Shown in pieces: positions 50,529 to 62,589 of a DNA stretch of 64,000 nucleotides. The position numbers and the translations under genes are program-made. The stretch's first letter is position 1, and the number at the start of each line of letters is the position of its first letter. Where the stretch lies: positions 1-64,000 of the forward strand of contig JAHCGZ010000003.1 in the NCBI GenBank assembly GCA_022117465.1, written 5' to 3'. A model generated the notes under the pieces. The model searched no databases. It was not told where the DNA came from and worked only from the letters and a program-made list of their open reading frames with translations. The stretch is from Candidatus Nitrosopumilus limneticus. Lineage in GTDB: Archaea; Thermoproteota; Nitrososphaeria; Nitrososphaerales; Nitrosopumilaceae.

Positions 50529-51233
50529 TTGGAGAATAACTTTACTGAAGAGGAAAAAAGAGGTTTCTATAAGGCAATATATTCACGAAGGGATGTTAGA
50601 TCACATTTTATATCAAAACCAATTGAAGAAGAGAAATTATTCAAAATTCTTCATGCAGCTCATCATGCACCATCAGTGGGTTTTTCTCAACCATGGAATT
50701 TTATTTTAATTAAAGATCAAGCAACGAAAAAGAAAATTAAAGAATCATTTGATGAAGAAAAAAAACGTTCCTCACAAATTATAGAGGAACCAAAAAAATC
50801 AAAATATTTATCATTTAAGCTAGAAGGAATTCTAGAATCTCCAGTTAATCTTTGTGTAACATATGATCCAACAAAATTTGGTCCATTTGTTATAGGTAGA
50901 TCAAGTATTCCAGAAGCTGGATTATACAGTGTGTGCTGTGCAATTCAAAATTTGTGGTTATCATCAAGAACAGAAGGAGTAGGATTAGGTTGGGTCAGTA
51001 TTCTTTCAAATGATGTTCTAAAGGAAATTTTAGGATTACCAGAGCATGTAGTTCCTGTTGCATACTTGTGTCTTGGTTATGTTAATGAATTTGCCGATAA
51101 GCCGGATCTTGAAACTGCACGTTGGTTACCAAGATTAGATCTAAAAGATGTTGTATTCTATGAAAAATGGGAAGATAAAAACAATTTAGATTGGAAAGAA
51201 ATTCAGGATTTAATTCAAACGAATTTCGCTTAG
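50529..51233 (+). CDS. bluB: 5,6-dimethylbenzimidazole synthase BluB-like nitroreductase
   Basis: The 234-aa flavin enzyme has YSRRDVRSHFISKPI at the N-terminus, HHAPSVGFSQPWNFILI and EGVGLGWVSIL, the BluB subgroup of nitroreductases. It cuts FMN to DMB, the lower cobalamin ligand, fitting the cobalamin output of thaumarchaea. The TTG at 50529 is the only standard start in this frame. An ATG at 50516 in another frame gives MSVNIGE and then a stop, so a one-base error at the N-terminus is possible. Confidence 0.9.
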   Translation: MENNFTEEEKRGFYKAIYSRRDVRSHFISKPIEEEKLFKILHAAHHAPSVGFSQPWNFILIKDQATKKKIKESFDEEKKRSSQIIEEPKKSKYLSFKLEGILESPVNLCVTYDPTKFGPFVIGRSSIPEAGLYSVCCAIQNLWLSSRTEGVGLGWVSILSNDVLKEILGLPEHVVPVAYLCLGYVNEFADKPDLETARWLPRLDLKDVVFYEKWEDKNNLDWKEIQDLIQTNFA

Positions 51234-56949: not shown

Positions 56950-57306
56950 ATGTCAGAAAAAAAAAATGAAGTGTATGATGATAGATTAGATGAAATTTTC
57001 AAACTCCAAAAAGGTCTATCTGAAGTGATGAAATTAGATAGATACCCAAAAGATTCAGAAAATAGAATTTCTGCATTATGTACTGCAATTATACATGAAG
57101 CAGTTGAATTACAAAGAACAACAAATTGGAAATGGTGGAAAACGCCTACTGAATTTGATCAAAATGAGGCTAGAGAAGAATTAATTGACATATGGCATTT
57201 TGTAGTTCAAGCATCATTGGAATTAAAATTAACACCTAATGATATTTTAGATGAATATAAAAGAAAAAACCAAATCAATCATGAAAGACAAAAAAATGGT
57301 TACTAA
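56950..57306 (+). CDS. All-alpha NTP pyrophosphatase, dimeric dUTPase-like
   Basis: The 118-aa helical protein has IIHEAVELQRTTNWKWWK and EEELIDIWHFVVQAS-type motifs (EExxD and HF), matching the dUTPase_2/MazG-like superfamily that hydrolyses dUTP/dUDP with Mg2+. It would keep dUTP low, complementing tmk. It converges on the MtrA-like gene with a 4-bp overlap. Confidence 0.82.
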   Translation: MSEKKNEVYDDRLDEIFKLQKGLSEVMKLDRYPKDSENRISALCTAIIHEAVELQRTTNWKWWKTPTEFDQNEAREELIDIWHFVVQASLELKLTPNDILDEYKRKNQINHERQKNGY

Positions 57307-57779
57307 TTTATTGAAATTTTATTAATAATTAATTTCATATTTGTTTCATTAATTAAATTGACAAGTGTAATTTCTTTTTGAAAATATTTTATTTCTAATT
57401 CAGAAACAGTTAGAAATGGATTAGGACTGGTTGAATTAATTATTCTATTATTATTATCAACTCCATTTTTATGTAATTCAAATAATGAATGTCCAGATTT
57501 ATGACCCCAAACTTCTTTACCACATACAATAATTATTTTAATTTTTTTATTTTGATTTACATATTTTATTATTGAGTCAATTCCTTTATTTTCAGTAAAT
57601 AATCTACCAACAATTGCAACTTTATCAATAATTTCTGAATTTTTAATTTCTTTTAATAATTTAATACTGGAAAGTGTACATATGCAAATTGATGAATTAG
57701 AATTGCCAATATAGAATTCTTCAGTAATCGGTAAAAGAACTTCACATATTTTACCAATAGTCTCATTTAGTTTATTCAA
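57303..57779 (-). CDS. Stand-alone MtrA-like protein (tetrahydromethanopterin S-methyltransferase subunit A family)
   Basis: The 158-aa protein has VAIVGRLFTENKGIDSII and CGKEVWGHKSGHSLFELHKNG, closely matching MtrA, whose conserved His in this region binds the corrinoid cobalt. NNRIINSTSPNPFL and a final strand follow. It lacks the C-terminal membrane helix of methanogen MtrA, and no other Mtr subunit is seen. It overlaps the DegT gene by 4 bp (ATGA), so the two are coupled. A cobamide-dependent methyl transfer or corrinoid storage role is inferred. Confidence 0.75.
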   Translation of the reverse strand: MNKLNETIGKICEVLLPITEEFYIGNSNSSICICTLSSIKLLKEIKNSEIIDKVAIVGRLFTENKGIDSIIKYVNQNKKIKIIIVCGKEVWGHKSGHSLFELHKNGVDNNNRIINSTSPNPFLTVSELEIKYFQKEITLVNLINETNMKLIINKISIN

Positions 57780-58858
57780 AGTATTTCAAAAATTGTTTTT
57801 GCAATAAATTTAATATTTTTTGTGGTAACTTTAGGATGAATTGGTAAAGAGAGCACATTTGCTGCTGCCCATTCAGTTATTGGTAATTTGGTTTTTGATT
57901 TATAAAATGGTGTTTTATGTACAGGTATTGGATAGTAGGATGCTGCACCTATTCCTTTTGCATTGAGTTTTTTCAAAAGAATATCACGTTTTGGTGTACT
58001 AACTGTATAGAGATACCAGTTAACATTTTCATTTTTTCGTTCCACTGGAAGAACAAGATTTGATTTTGAAAGTAATTTTGATAAAAGTTTTGCATTTTTT
58101 TGTCTAGTTTTTAAAAATTTTGGTAATTTTTTCATTTGTACTGTAGCAATTGCTGCATTTATTTCAGGTAATCGTAAATTAAACCCAAGTAATCTTGTAT
58201 CATATCCCTTTACCATTCCATGATTTCTAATCATTAGTAATTTGTCTCTCAGTTTTTTGTTGTTTGTAACAATAAATCCACCCTCTCCAGCAGTCATTAC
58301 TTTTGCTGGATACATGCTATAGCATCCCATTTCAAAGAAAGTTCCTGTATGTTTTTTCTTAAATGTGGAACCTAGTGATTGAGCTGCATCTTCTATAATT
58401 GGTATGTTGAATTTTTTAGCAATTTCAGAAATTCTATCTAAGTAGGCTACATTTCCATAAAGATGCACAGGAACTATAGCTTTAGTTTTTTTTGTAATTT
58501 TTTTCTGAAGATCATCTGGATCCATTGTAAAATTTTCTTTTAAAATATCAACAAAAACAGGTTTTGCCCCTGTAGAGTATACAGAATTTGCAGTTGCAAC
58601 AAAAGTAAAGGATGGAATTAAAACTTCATCGCCTTGTTTGATATCCAATGCATATACAGCTGCTTGTAATGCTGCAGTACCAGAATTTACAGCTATGGCA
58701 TATTTTGAATTTACAAATGATGAAACAGATTTTTCAAATTCTTGAACATATTTCCCACCCTGAATTGCAGAGGAAGTTAATGCTCCATTTTTAAGAATAG
58801 AAGTTACAACTGAAATTTCTTCCCTGCCTGTAGAAGGAATGTTTATGGGTATTGTCAA
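57776..58858 (-). CDS. DegT/DnrJ/EryC1/StrS aminotransferase
   Basis: The 360-aa PLP enzyme has the family's FVNSKYAIAVNSGTAALQAA, FVDILKENFTMDP, IPIIEDAAQSLGS and YPAKVMTAGEGGFIVTN with the Schiff-base Lys, and ends with YYPIPVHKTPFY. Enzymes of this family aminate keto-sugars for surface glycans. The pairing with MtrA is unusual. It is divergent from the membrane protein gene with 67 bp between starts. Confidence 0.92.
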   Translation of the reverse strand: MTIPINIPSTGREEISVVTSILKNGALTSSAIQGGKYVQEFEKSVSSFVNSKYAIAVNSGTAALQAAVYALDIKQGDEVLIPSFTFVATANSVYSTGAKPVFVDILKENFTMDPDDLQKKITKKTKAIVPVHLYGNVAYLDRISEIAKKFNIPIIEDAAQSLGSTFKKKHTGTFFEMGCYSMYPAKVMTAGEGGFIVTNNKKLRDKLLMIRNHGMVKGYDTRLLGFNLRLPEINAAIATVQMKKLPKFLKTRQKNAKLLSKLLSKSNLVLPVERKNENVNWYLYTVSTPKRDILLKKLNAKGIGAASYYPIPVHKTPFYKSKTKLPITEWAAANVLSLPIHPKVTTKNIKFIAKTIFEIL

Positions 58859-58925: not shown

Positions 58926-59516
58926 TTGGCAAAGGATAGAATGAAGCCAAGACATTTAGAAAAAACTGATAAAGGTTACAAAGTCTATTTGTATATTTTC
59001 TATATTTGCGGAGCTATTATGGTTTCAACATTAGTTTTTGGTGTATATGCTACAATGTTAGAGTGGTTAACAAATGGAACATATGTTATGGGTGAAGTAA
59101 TTCACAACACAACTATTCCTTTTGAAAATTTTGCTAGAATTTCAACTTGGATCTTTTTTTCTACAATAATTGGTTGGTACTGTGTATCTAGAATTGGTTG
59201 GAAAAGAACTGCAGGAAACAAAATTGTTGGAACTAAAATGGCTTTACTGCAATTAATGTTACTTGGATTTACAATAATTACCTTCTACGAAGTATTATAT
59301 AATTTCACAATTTTAAATGCACAAGTAACAGCAGGTATAGTAGATGGAATAGTTCCAGATATTGATATGCTTTCAGTAGCTTATCCAGATCCTGATCGTC
59401 CATGGAATCTGGTTTTTGCAACAAAAGTATTTCTTGCAGCATTCATTATTAGTGCACATGCATTTTATCTAAGCGTAAAACCTAGAAAAACCTTAGATAT
59501 TGATGAAGAATTATAA
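58926..59516 (+). CDS. Four-helix membrane protein of unknown function
   Basis: The 196-aa protein has a basic N-terminus and four membrane helices (about 22-46, 70-88, 104-124, 163-183), with an extracytoplasmic loop rich in Pro and Asp (IDMLSVAYPDPDRPWNL). Conserved Trp/Tyr and few charged residues in the helices suggest a complex subunit. No known family such as AmoA/B/C is matched. The start TTG is followed by AKDRMKPRH; ATG 58941 is an alternative. Confidence 0.6.
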   Translation: MAKDRMKPRHLEKTDKGYKVYLYIFYICGAIMVSTLVFGVYATMLEWLTNGTYVMGEVIHNTTIPFENFARISTWIFFSTIIGWYCVSRIGWKRTAGNKIVGTKMALLQLMLLGFTIITFYEVLYNFTILNAQVTAGIVDGIVPDIDMLSVAYPDPDRPWNLVFATKVFLAAFIISAHAFYLSVKPRKTLDIDEEL

Positions 59517-59599: not shown

Positions 59600-59788
59600 A
59601 TGGGATTAATTGGATCAGATAAGAATGATTTAAAATGTAAAAAATGTGGAACGGTATTACCAGATTCTGAAAGACTAAAAAGACATCAAGAAAAAGCTCA
59701 CAACAAAAAAAAGGAAAAATGTCGTACATGTGGCGAAGAATTTGATTCTGGTGAAGAGTTAAGAAAACATAAAAAACATTGTAAATAA
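59600..59788 (+). CDS. Two-finger C2H2-type zinc-finger protein
   Basis: The 62-aa protein has finger one CKKCGTVLPDSERLKRHQ with a following His (C2H2) and finger two CRTCGEEFDSGEELRKHKKH ending with Cys (C2HC). Linker and tails are Lys-rich. This is the classical eukaryotic-like layout, which occurs in some archaea as small DNA- or RNA-binding proteins. It has an 83-bp AT-rich upstream region. Confidence 0.8.
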   Translation: MGLIGSDKNDLKCKKCGTVLPDSERLKRHQEKAHNKKKEKCRTCGEEFDSGEELRKHKKHCK

Positions 59789-60191: not shown

Positions 60192-60315
60192 TCGATAAAA
60201 TGTGTGTTAAAAATCTAGAATATAAACATAATGAACAATTTGATCTAAGGTGAAAACGTAAATTTTCATAAATTAAAAATAAAAAAAAGAGGTATTGATC
60301 CTCAAATTAAAAAAT

Positions 60316-60378
60316 CTATTTCTTTTTAGTTGCTTTTTTAGCTGTTGTTTTTTTAGCTGCTTTTTTAGCTGTTGCCAT
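60316..60378 (-). CDS. 20-aa Lys/Ala peptide resembling a histone H1 tail
   Basis: The frame runs from ATG at 60378 to TAG at 60316 and encodes MATAKKAAKKTTAKKATKKK. The AKKA-type repeats match H1/Hc1/HU-tail motifs that neutralise DNA. It stands alone, so it is either a tiny DNA-binding peptide or a remnant. The rest of the 59789-60745 gap holds no other frame I can support. Confidence 0.4.
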   Translation of the reverse strand: MATAKKAAKKTTAKKATKKK

Positions 60379-60745
60379 AAAGGAGCATTAGAATACTTGA
60401 ATTTCTATACAGTGAATTAAAAAAATTACACCAAATAGATCTTGGTGATGCATAATTTTAAAATCCATTTTGATAAATAAAAAATGAATTTTAAATTTAT
60501 TTACTATATTGATGAATTGAAAAAATCTTTTGATCATTTTTATCCCAAAAAGTCCACTTATTTTGTAATAAAAATTCTAAAATTATCATATTATGTTGTT
60601 TTGATTTAATTTGTAAACTTCCTGGTCTGTATTTTCTTCTTTTTCTTCCAATTTATTCACTAATTCTTTGATCCTATCATGAAATAGGTTCTTTGATATA
60701 ATTATAGATAATTTTATAGGCTTAGATTTCAAAAGTTTTTTTGAT

Positions 60746-61792
60746 CTGGATATTATTGAAAAAGTAGATTTAATTGAAAAACCTCCAACAGAAGAAGTAG
60801 TAACTCGCGAAGAATTAATTGAATTATTTAAAACAAATTCATCACCAAATCACTATATTGGTTTAGAAATTTCTGGTTTTTTACATCTCGGTAGTTTAAT
60901 CAGTACTGGTTTTAAAATAAATGATTTTGTAAAAGCAGGAATTAATTGTAAAATTTTCCTTGCAGATTGGCACACTTTAATTAATGACAAATTAGGAGGA
61001 AACTGGGAAACAATTTCTAAAGTTTCAAAATATTACCAGGATGCATTCAAATTAGTATGTCCAAATGCAGAAATTATTTTAGGTTCTAAATTATATGAAG
61101 AAAAAACAGAATATTGGTCAGATCTTGTGAAATTTACAAAACATATGTCAATTGCTAGAACAATGAGAACATTAACAATAATGGGTCGTTCAGAAGATGA
61201 CACAAAAATTGATGTAGCTAAATTACTTTATCCAGCAATGCAAGCAGTTGATATTCATTCTTTAGATGTTGATATAGCACATGCAGGAATGGATCAAAGA
61301 AAAATTCACATGTTGGTTAGAGAAATTTTCCCTAAAATGAAATGGAAAGTTCCAGTATCTGTTCACCATAAATTATTACCAGGACTTTCAAAACCAACAG
61401 ATTCTGATAATTCACAAATATTGGGGAAAATGAGTAAATCAGACCCAAATTCAGGTATATTTATTCACAATACAGATGACGAGATAAAGAAAAAAATTAG
61501 TAAATCATGGTGTGAAGAAGAAAATATTCAAAGTAATCCATTATTAGAAATTGCAAAAACAATAATTTTTCATGAATTTAATGAAATTAATATTGAACGA
61601 CCGGAAAAATATGGGGGCAATGTATCATATTATAATTATGATGAATTACAAAAAGATTTTGCAGAAAATAAATTACACCCAGGAGATTTAAAACAAACTG
61701 TCGGTAATTATCTTGTCAAAGTAATTTCCCCTATTAGGGAAAAACTAAATCTTAGTGAAGAGATATCTGAAGCGATAAAGAGAAGTTTCTAA
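60746..61792 (+). CDS. tyrS: Tyrosyl-tRNA synthetase, non-standard start (CTG suggested)
   Basis: The reading frame is unbroken from a TGA near 60675 to TAA at 61792. It has KPPTEEVVTREELIELF, YIGLEISGFLHLGSL (HIGH-like), FLADWHTLIN, GMDQRKIHML (tyrosine-site Q and D) and KMSKSDPN (KMSKS). No ATG, GTG or TTG occurs in frame before the GTG at 61127, which would remove the catalytic core. The CTG at 60746 gives LDIIEKVDLIEKPP, near the expected N-terminus; the codon before is GAT preceded by TTT where homologs would have ATG. It converges on cobJ with a 4-bp overlap. Confidence 0.88.
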   Translation: MDIIEKVDLIEKPPTEEVVTREELIELFKTNSSPNHYIGLEISGFLHLGSLISTGFKINDFVKAGINCKIFLADWHTLINDKLGGNWETISKVSKYYQDAFKLVCPNAEIILGSKLYEEKTEYWSDLVKFTKHMSIARTMRTLTIMGRSEDDTKIDVAKLLYPAMQAVDIHSLDVDIAHAGMDQRKIHMLVREIFPKMKWKVPVSVHHKLLPGLSKPTDSDNSQILGKMSKSDPNSGIFIHNTDDEIKKKISKSWCEEENIQSNPLLEIAKTIIFHEFNEINIERPEKYGGNVSYYNYDELQKDFAENKLHPGDLKQTVGNYLVKVISPIREKLNLSEEISEAIKRSF

Positions 61793-62589
61793 ACTTTAAG
61801 ATTTGGATTAGTTTGTTCTTCTAAATTATATTTTGATTTGTATCCTCGAGGATTAATCATTAAATCTTTGTAAGTATACGTTGATGAATTACCAATAATA
61901 ACAGTACTAGTCATACCTAATTCTTTATCAAAATTAAGTAAATTCTCTAAATTAGTCATAACAATTGCTTGAGATTCTCGATAAGCATTTTTAACTATTG
62001 CAACAGGTGTTGTAGGTTTTCTATATTTAATCAGAATTTTTTGTGTATCTTGTAATTGATGAATTCTTTTTTTACTTTTAGGATTATAAATTACAATTAC
62101 AAAATCACCTTGTGCAGCTGATTCAACACGTTTTTGAATTATTTCCCATGGTACCATTAAATCACTCATACTAACAACAGCAAAATCAGTCATTAGAGGT
62201 GAACCAATAATTGATGCACAAGAATTTAATGCAGATACGCCAGGAATAATTTCTACTTTAAGATCATCAGAAGGATCCCAACCGGTAGTAGCAAGTGTTT
62301 CATAGATTAATCCAGCCATTCCATAAATTCCAGGATCTCCACTAGATACTAATGAAACAATTTTTCCTGATCTTGCAAGATCAATGCATTGATGAGCTCT
62401 TTCAACTTCTTGTGTCATAGCATATCGATGAATAGTTTTACCAACAATTAGATCTTCAACTAAATTCACATAGGTTTCATAACCGACAATGGTATCACTT
62501 TCAGTAATTACTTCTTTCGCTCGAAACGTCATATGATCATGATTTCCAGGACCAACACCAACAATGTAGAGCTTACCAGTCAATTTCAT
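61789..62589 (-). CDS. cobJ: Precorrin-3B C17-methyltransferase
   Basis: The 266-aa tetrapyrrole methylase has YIVGVGPGNHDHMTFRA at the N-terminus, SSGDPGIYGMAGLIYE (SAM-binding) and VEIIPGVSALNSCASIIGSPL, then NPKSKKR and VIIGNSSTY, typical of CobJ/CbiH. It contracts the corrin ring in cobalamin synthesis. With bluB it shows cobalamin production by this organism. No other cob gene is adjacent. Confidence 0.93.
   Translation of the reverse strand: MKLTGKLYIVGVGPGNHDHMTFRAKEVITESDTIVGYETYVNLVEDLIVGKTIHRYAMTQEVERAHQCIDLARSGKIVSLVSSGDPGIYGMAGLIYETLATTGWDPSDDLKVEIIPGVSALNSCASIIGSPLMTDFAVVSMSDLMVPWEIIQKRVESAAQGDFVIVIYNPKSKKRIHQLQDTQKILIKYRKPTTPVAIVKNAYRESQAIVMTNLENLLNFDKELGMTSTVIIGNSSTYTYKDLMINPRGYKSKYNLEEQTNPNLKV

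Follow-up and report, generated by a model that had tools for sequence, protein, structure and literature searches.

Closest described systems

Canonical MtrA is a subunit of the Na+-pumping methyl-H4MPT:CoM methyltransferase MtrA-H (PF04208/TIGR01111). In the protein of M. marburgensis, His84 is the lower axial cobalt ligand, Glu54 forms a hydrogen bond to His84, and Asn55 is able to touch a propionamide side chain of the corrin; through the hydrogen-bond linkage of its ligand His, which includes Glu54, MtrA resembles MetH in kind, and a meander is thought to transmit the cobalt state within the Mtr complex (PMC4915002). Soluble MtrA homologues of non-methanogens are already known. Such cytoplasmic or “group IV” proteins are short and soluble, have His84 mostly conserved, and were reported to occur sporadically, with horizontal transfer given as their origin (Wagner 2016, PMC4915002; Wang 2015, PMC4632066), and they have been delimited as homologues outside methanogens of <215 aa that keep His84 and have no juxtamembrane or transmembrane segment (PMC4915002). 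Asgard archaea provide another case of MtrA-like proteins in non-methanogens, together with MtrH and an MtrA-MtrH fusion (PMC11291895).

The window analyzed here is a 64,000-nucleotide stretch of the genome of Candidatus Nitrosopumilus limneticus. Ammonia-oxidizing archaea (AOA) are highly abundant and are regarded as major producers of cobalamin; to our knowledge, the proteins in which they themselves use cobalamin have been poorly mapped. The original prediction, made from the letters of the window, described a stand-alone MtrA-like corrinoid protein coupled to a DegT aminotransferase. The features of this locus are as follows:

57303..57779, minus strand: mtrA-like gene, TTG start, 158 aa, predicted soluble MtrA-type corrinoid protein (PF04208, PDB matches, structure model and dN/dS)
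57776..57779, minus strand: TTGA, 4 bp shared by the end of degT (stop codon) and the TTG start of mtrA (sequence)
57776..58858, minus strand: DegT/DnrJ/EryC1/StrS aminotransferase, 360 aa (PF01041, E=4.5e-110)
56950..57306, plus strand: MazG/dUTPase_2-like pyrophosphohydrolase, convergent with mtrA with a 4-bp 3' overlap (PF08761, E=8e-18)
58926..59516, plus strand: membrane-protein ORF conserved in AOA, oriented divergently to degT and syntenic in Nitrosopumilaceae

Identity and fold of the MtrA-like protein

The 158-aa ORF matched the Pfam MtrA family (PF04208) with 94 bits (gathering cut-off: 25 bits; E=1e-26) and is the only PF04208 copy in the window's genome. Searching the PDB with phmmer returned solved MtrA structures (E-values of 4e-18 to 3e-13) and two other, insignificant matches. 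An AlphaFold2 model was computed with 34 AOA sequences as input (mean pLDDT: 85) and searched with Foldseek, which gave seven matches below 1e-3 (E-values of 1.6e-13 to 6e-12; TM about 0.75-0.80); all were MtrA, from Methanothermus fervidus (with cobalamin), Methanocaldococcus jannaschii and Methanosarcina mazei, the cobalamin complex 5laa among them, and no non-MtrA fold was matched at E <1e-3. By this model, the window protein is of the MtrA-type Rossmann fold, with ~30% identity to canonical MtrA in the structural alignment.

The protein differs from canonical MtrA in being 158 rather than about 240 aa long and in having no C-terminal membrane helix (peak 19-residue hydropathy of 0.97 versus 2.3-2.8 in canonical Thermoproteota MtrA). 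It scored 83.1 bits against the TIGR01111 equivalog (cut-off: 249.15) and 154 bits against the MtrA subfamily model NF002126 of NCBIfam (other AOA: 98-122; curated cut-off: 161), below the cut-off in both cases. Since its genome encodes an archaeal AmoA, the organism is an ammonia oxidizer and not a methanogen. A stand-alone MtrA-like protein in a non-methanogen, with the membrane helix missing, is thus what the original prediction had claimed and what the searches returned. In length, solubility, ligand His and host the protein falls among the cytoplasmic MtrA homologues, and in helix, meander, TIGR01111 score and MtrH it departs from canonical MtrA; the family name “tetrahydromethanopterin S-methyltransferase subunit A” should not be read as a methanogenesis trait in nitrifiers.

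The predicted cobalt-ligand site

Two stretches of the gene encode the equivalents of ligand-side residues, as assigned by alignment with M. marburgensis MtrA (roles from PMC4915002):

57501..57503, minus strand: codon of His93, equivalent to His84, the lower axial cobalt ligand
57588..57593, minus strand: codons of Glu63-Asn64, equivalent to Glu54-Asn55

The protein contains a GHKSGH motif, the first His of which (His93) aligns with His84 of methanogen MtrA. Loss of this His from the alignment had been named beforehand as a possible refutation of the original prediction; the position is His in all 160 distinct AOA sequences. The equivalents of Glu54, Asn55 and Gly57 and of Gly83 are invariant in the same 160, and the Thr53 position is always Ser or Thr. 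Two residues of methanogen MtrA that touch the nucleotide tail, Lys52 (a backbone contact) and Asn64 (methanogen numbering), are not conserved in the AOA sequences, so affinity or cobamide type may differ. The meander is replaced: where canonical MtrA has GAIPF/Y-x-EN, the window protein has TSPNPFLT and the AOA clade roughly SxSPxPxL. Judged from the sequence, binding of cobalamin by the window protein is likely.

Distribution, phylogeny and selection

A class-wide search recovered the AOA-type mtrA in four families: f1, f2 and f3, which we read from the named genomes matched as Nitrosopumilaceae, Nitrosocaldaceae and Nitrososphaeraceae, and a fourth, f5. Archaeal AmoA was found in these same four families and in no other family of the class sample. 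Named genomes with a match belong to Nitrosopumilus, Nitrosarchaeum, Nitrosotalea, Nitrosotenuis, Nitrososphaera, Nitrosocaldus and Nitrosothermus and include a SAT137 genome; within Nitrosopumilaceae 186 of 250 genomes have the gene (115 of 131 if near-complete genomes alone are counted). When an AOA-only alignment was used for scanning, all 80 of the matches listed were thaumarchaeal/Nitrososphaerota records. PF04208 proteins of the class and phylum other than the AOA type were of canonical length or were fusions. The phylogeny against methanogen-type MtrA that the original prediction had proposed as a check placed the AOA-type sequences in one clade (39/39; FastTree support: 0.74), apart from canonical MtrA and from MtrA fusions. 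The gene is not an oddity of this genome, as it is near-core in ammonia-oxidizing archaea across four AmoA-bearing families; AOA-wide presence and monophyly also rule out recent acquisition by this single genome. Unlike the sporadic group IV proteins, the AOA clade is widespread in four families and has its own motif and recurrent neighbors.

Pairwise dN/dS values of 0.13-0.25 indicate that mtrA of the window is under purifying selection, although constraint is about half as tight, and evolution about twice as fast, as in its neighbors. A pseudogene or chance ORF was considered and is ruled out by the PF04208 E-value, the fold match and dN/dS <=0.25. No mtrA match was found in the AmoA-positive genera g7, g8, g12, g14, g21 and g22. 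In the Nitrosopumilus group, genomes G122, G126 and G156 carry a frame-broken mtrA remnant and G114 and G124 show a clean absence, and loss in this group has apparently been repeated. Given these absences and this decay, mtrA is dispensable. At the level of loci, the decayed remnants (L164-L166) and the sites from which mtrA is gone (L161-L162) lie between an intact degT and the MazG-like gene.

Gene neighborhood

The DegT ORF matched PF01041 over its full length (368.7 bits, residues 11-356, above the gathering cut-off); its best NCBIfam match is PseC/LegC-like, and it scored below the cut-offs of all named equivalogs (PseC, LegC, ArnB and WecE). It is a full-length, sugar-type aminotransferase of the DegT/DnrJ/EryC1/StrS family. 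Both this identity and the 4-bp overlap with mtrA agree with the original prediction. The survey of gene neighbors that it had suggested found DegT upstream of mtrA in 114 of 160 distinct AOA loci, all of them from Nitrosopumilaceae, and no DegT adjoining mtrA in the loci of the other three AOA families. Among the 108 Nitrosopumilaceae loci measured, 78 have an overlap of -4 bp and 18 one of -8 bp, from which we infer that degT and mtrA are probably co-translated in this family.

The adjacency is not special evidence of a shared function, because the whole block is syntenic in the Nitrosopumilaceae genera sampled (cyclophilin - ORFs - PfkB - MazG-like - mtrA - degT - ORF 58926 - TyrRS - cobJ - aspartate kinase). 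The MazG-like gene is the convergent downstream neighbor of mtrA in 137 of the 160 distinct AOA loci. DegT is intact in five Nitrosopumilus-group genomes with mtrA deleted or decayed (G114, G124, G122, G126 and G156), and MtrA is kept without a close DegT in G005 and G287. Nitrososphaeraceae and f5 genomes have DegT homologues (~51-55% identity) that do not lie near mtrA, and in f5 (L170) and f3 (L175) a homologue of ORF 58926-59516(+), which matches no Pfam or NCBIfam family, lies beside the DegT homologue; the wider-spread partner of DegT is therefore this membrane ORF and not MtrA. Of the proposed coupling, adjacency and overlap stand for most Nitrosopumilaceae, whereas the pair is missing from the other families and each gene survives loss of the other. 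The best explanation is a Nitrosopumilaceae-specific arrangement without functional dependence.

Outside Nitrosopumilaceae, a PPOX/PNPOx-type gene lies directly upstream of mtrA in 30 loci (among the 160 distinct), and mtrA usually sits behind it in Nitrososphaeraceae, Nitrosocaldaceae and f5. The product matches PF01243, and its nearest NCBIfam models are F420-dependent PPOX classes, below their cut-offs. In Nitrosopumilaceae loci the PPOX gene is not physically linked to mtrA. Across 28 genomes, presence of a PPOX ortholog and of MtrA co-varied weakly (17/3/3/5; Fisher's exact test, p=0.02, phylogeny not corrected); some MtrA-bearing genomes, that of the window included, have no close PPOX ortholog, and some MtrA-less genomes keep one. 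Production of F420 by Nitrososphaera is indicated by fluorescence and genome data and is not biochemically confirmed (PMC8498797).

Cobalamin synthesis, MtrH and methionine synthases

The original prediction that the genome encodes cobalamin synthesis was borne out by bluB (50529-51233) and cobJ (61789-62589), which scored above the curated cut-offs of TIGR02476 and TIGR01466. It had also seen no other Mtr subunit, and the same was found here: MtrH (PF02007) had no match in the window's genome (G000) or the other AOA tested, 25 genomes in all, while positive controls matched, and MtrB-G were not seen beside mtrA (gene neighborhood only). MtrH was accordingly rejected as a partner of the MtrA-like protein. 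The AOA gene thus differs from canonical mtrA in having neither an mtr operon nor MtrH with it, and the tested AOA differ in the latter from Asgard archaea.

Most AOA of f1 and f3 (Nitrosopumilaceae and Nitrososphaeraceae) have a pterin-binding protein of ~840 aa, probably MetH with its own corrinoid domain, and no PF01717 protein; in genomes of Nitrosocaldaceae and f5, MtrA is accompanied by MetE-type (PF01717) proteins. Three AmoA-positive genomes (G052, G041 and G244) keep the MetH-like protein and have no MtrA. One Nitrosopumilaceae genome (G183, genus g15) has, unlike its relatives, a MetE-type protein and neither a MetH-like protein nor MtrA, possibly a switch away from B12.

Proposed function and alternatives

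We propose that the protein is a cytosolic, single-domain, His-on corrinoid protein of an AOA-specific clade, most likely a methyl carrier and perhaps reactivated by PPOX, a reading in which our confidence is evenly balanced. It would bind the cobalamin made by AOA in a base-off state, with His93 as the lower ligand and Glu63 as the hydrogen-bond partner of His93 on the MtrA-type Rossmann fold. The holoprotein would carry a methyl (one-carbon) group from a pterin or other methyl donor to an acceptor, and the F420-type PPOX split-barrel protein would be a candidate reductase, returning Co(II) to Co(I); corrinoid binding, methyl carriage and the PPOX role are all inferred from the comparisons above. 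The protein is not part of a sodium pump, since it lacks the membrane helix, its GAIPxIEN meander is not conserved and MtrH is missing. Other Thermoproteota have MtrA domains fused to DUF4346 (PterinBD in Pfam) or to thymidylate-synthase-like domains, which fits one-carbon chemistry in the wider MtrA family. The dispensability of mtrA counts against the proposed role, as do its faster evolution and the two unconserved positions near the nucleotide tail.

The main rival has the protein store, traffic or sense His-on cobalamin without methyl transfer, in the way of a cobamide buffer, chaperone or sensor, and we consider it possible though doubtful. Its appeal lies in the cobalamin synthesis that AOA encode (bluB, cobJ), in a protein that keeps the ligand-side residues and has lost the putative cobalt-state transmitter, in the lack of an MT1 partner of the MtrH type, and in tolerated loss and fast evolution, which suit an accessory role. 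The invariant Glu54 equivalent, which belongs to the hydrogen-bonded linkage around the ligand His, suggests instead selection on cobalt chemistry, and no cobalamin-synthesis gene was recognized beside mtrA outside Nitrosopumilaceae. If the bound cobalamin were a redox centre reduced by PPOX and carried no methyl group, the F420-class gene directly upstream of mtrA in three families and the weak co-variation of the two genes would be accounted for; the PPOX ortholog is, however, missing from some MtrA-bearing genomes and kept in some MtrA-less ones, and is unlinked to mtrA in Nitrosopumilaceae, and we think such an F420-linked redox protein quite improbable.

Two further roles appear very unlikely, to much the same degree. 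DegT and MtrA could form one functional unit, for example in corrinoid-dependent methylation of a DegT-made amino sugar, which would suit genes that stay adjacent and overlap by 4 bp in most Nitrosopumilaceae loci, but this is largely refuted by the pattern of gene loss in both directions, and the equal synteny of the flanking genes, the lack of a DegT neighbor in other AOA families and the more widespread pairing of DegT with the membrane ORF also speak against it. A methyl donor to a core methionine synthase would have a precedent in MesA, which is predicted to receive methyl groups from methanogen MtrA (PMC7857596), and would suit the MetE-type proteins found alongside MtrA in Nitrosocaldaceae and f5. 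Most Nitrosopumilaceae and Nitrososphaeraceae have the probable MetH in place of a PF01717 protein, however, and the natural losses of MtrA from the three MetH-like-bearing genomes argue against the idea, as does G183 with its MetE-type protein and no MtrA. Because MtrA accompanies either type of enzyme and is missing from some genomes with a MetH-like protein, it is not a general methyl donor for methionine, and a general role as partner in methionine synthesis is ruled out.

A bolder reading is that a repurposed MtrA, detached from the membrane, serves AOA in a so far undescribed corrinoid step of methyl transfer or redox chemistry, with a reductive partner of the F420/PPOX type. Aerobic nitrifiers would in that case have retained a methanogenesis-type part and lost it in, for example, g14 and repeatedly in the Nitrosopumilus group; we offer this as a speculative proposal that is more probably wrong than right. 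The AOA-wide distinct clade, the changed meander motif and the recurrent PPOX neighbor seem to be undescribed: among open papers (without supplements) retrieved for MtrA together with Nitrosopumilus or Nitrososphaera, no title or abstract treats the gene, and the MtrA of a paper on N. evergladensis is a two-component-system table entry, an unrelated protein sharing the name. An AOA-wide corrinoid-type protein with an invariant cobalt ligand is an added candidate cobalamin user and makes the use of B12 by AOA testable in culture.

Additional observations

Three Thermoproteota proteins (L244, L250 and L257; families f84, f80 and f45) carry an MtrA domain as an N-terminal fusion to a thymidylate-synthase-like domain (PF00303). 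L244 and L250 retain the ligand His, L257 has Tyr in its place, and all three have another residue at the Glu54 position. Proteins of the MtrA-DUF4346 (PterinBD) type and their relatives were seen in L139, L149, L150, L134, L247, L254 and L255; since L134, L149, L150, L247, L254 and L255 have lost the cobalt-ligand His, binding of cobalt through this residue has probably been given up by some proteins of the MtrA fold.

The tyrosyl-tRNA ligase gene of the window (60746-61792(+); PRK08560, 414 bits) has no ATG, GTG or TTG start in its open frame before 61127, and its relatives mostly have TTG where the window's genome has CTG (60746-60748), which suggests either that translation starts at CTG or that the sequence is in error. 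ORF 59600-59788(+) (~62 aa) contains two C2H2-like zinc-finger motifs, CKKCGTVLPDSERLKRHQEKAH and CRTCGEEFDSGEELRKHKKHC. The short frame 60273-60404(-) is lysine-rich and repetitive, reading KKQLKKQQLKKQLK in one frame and alanine/lysine-rich in another.
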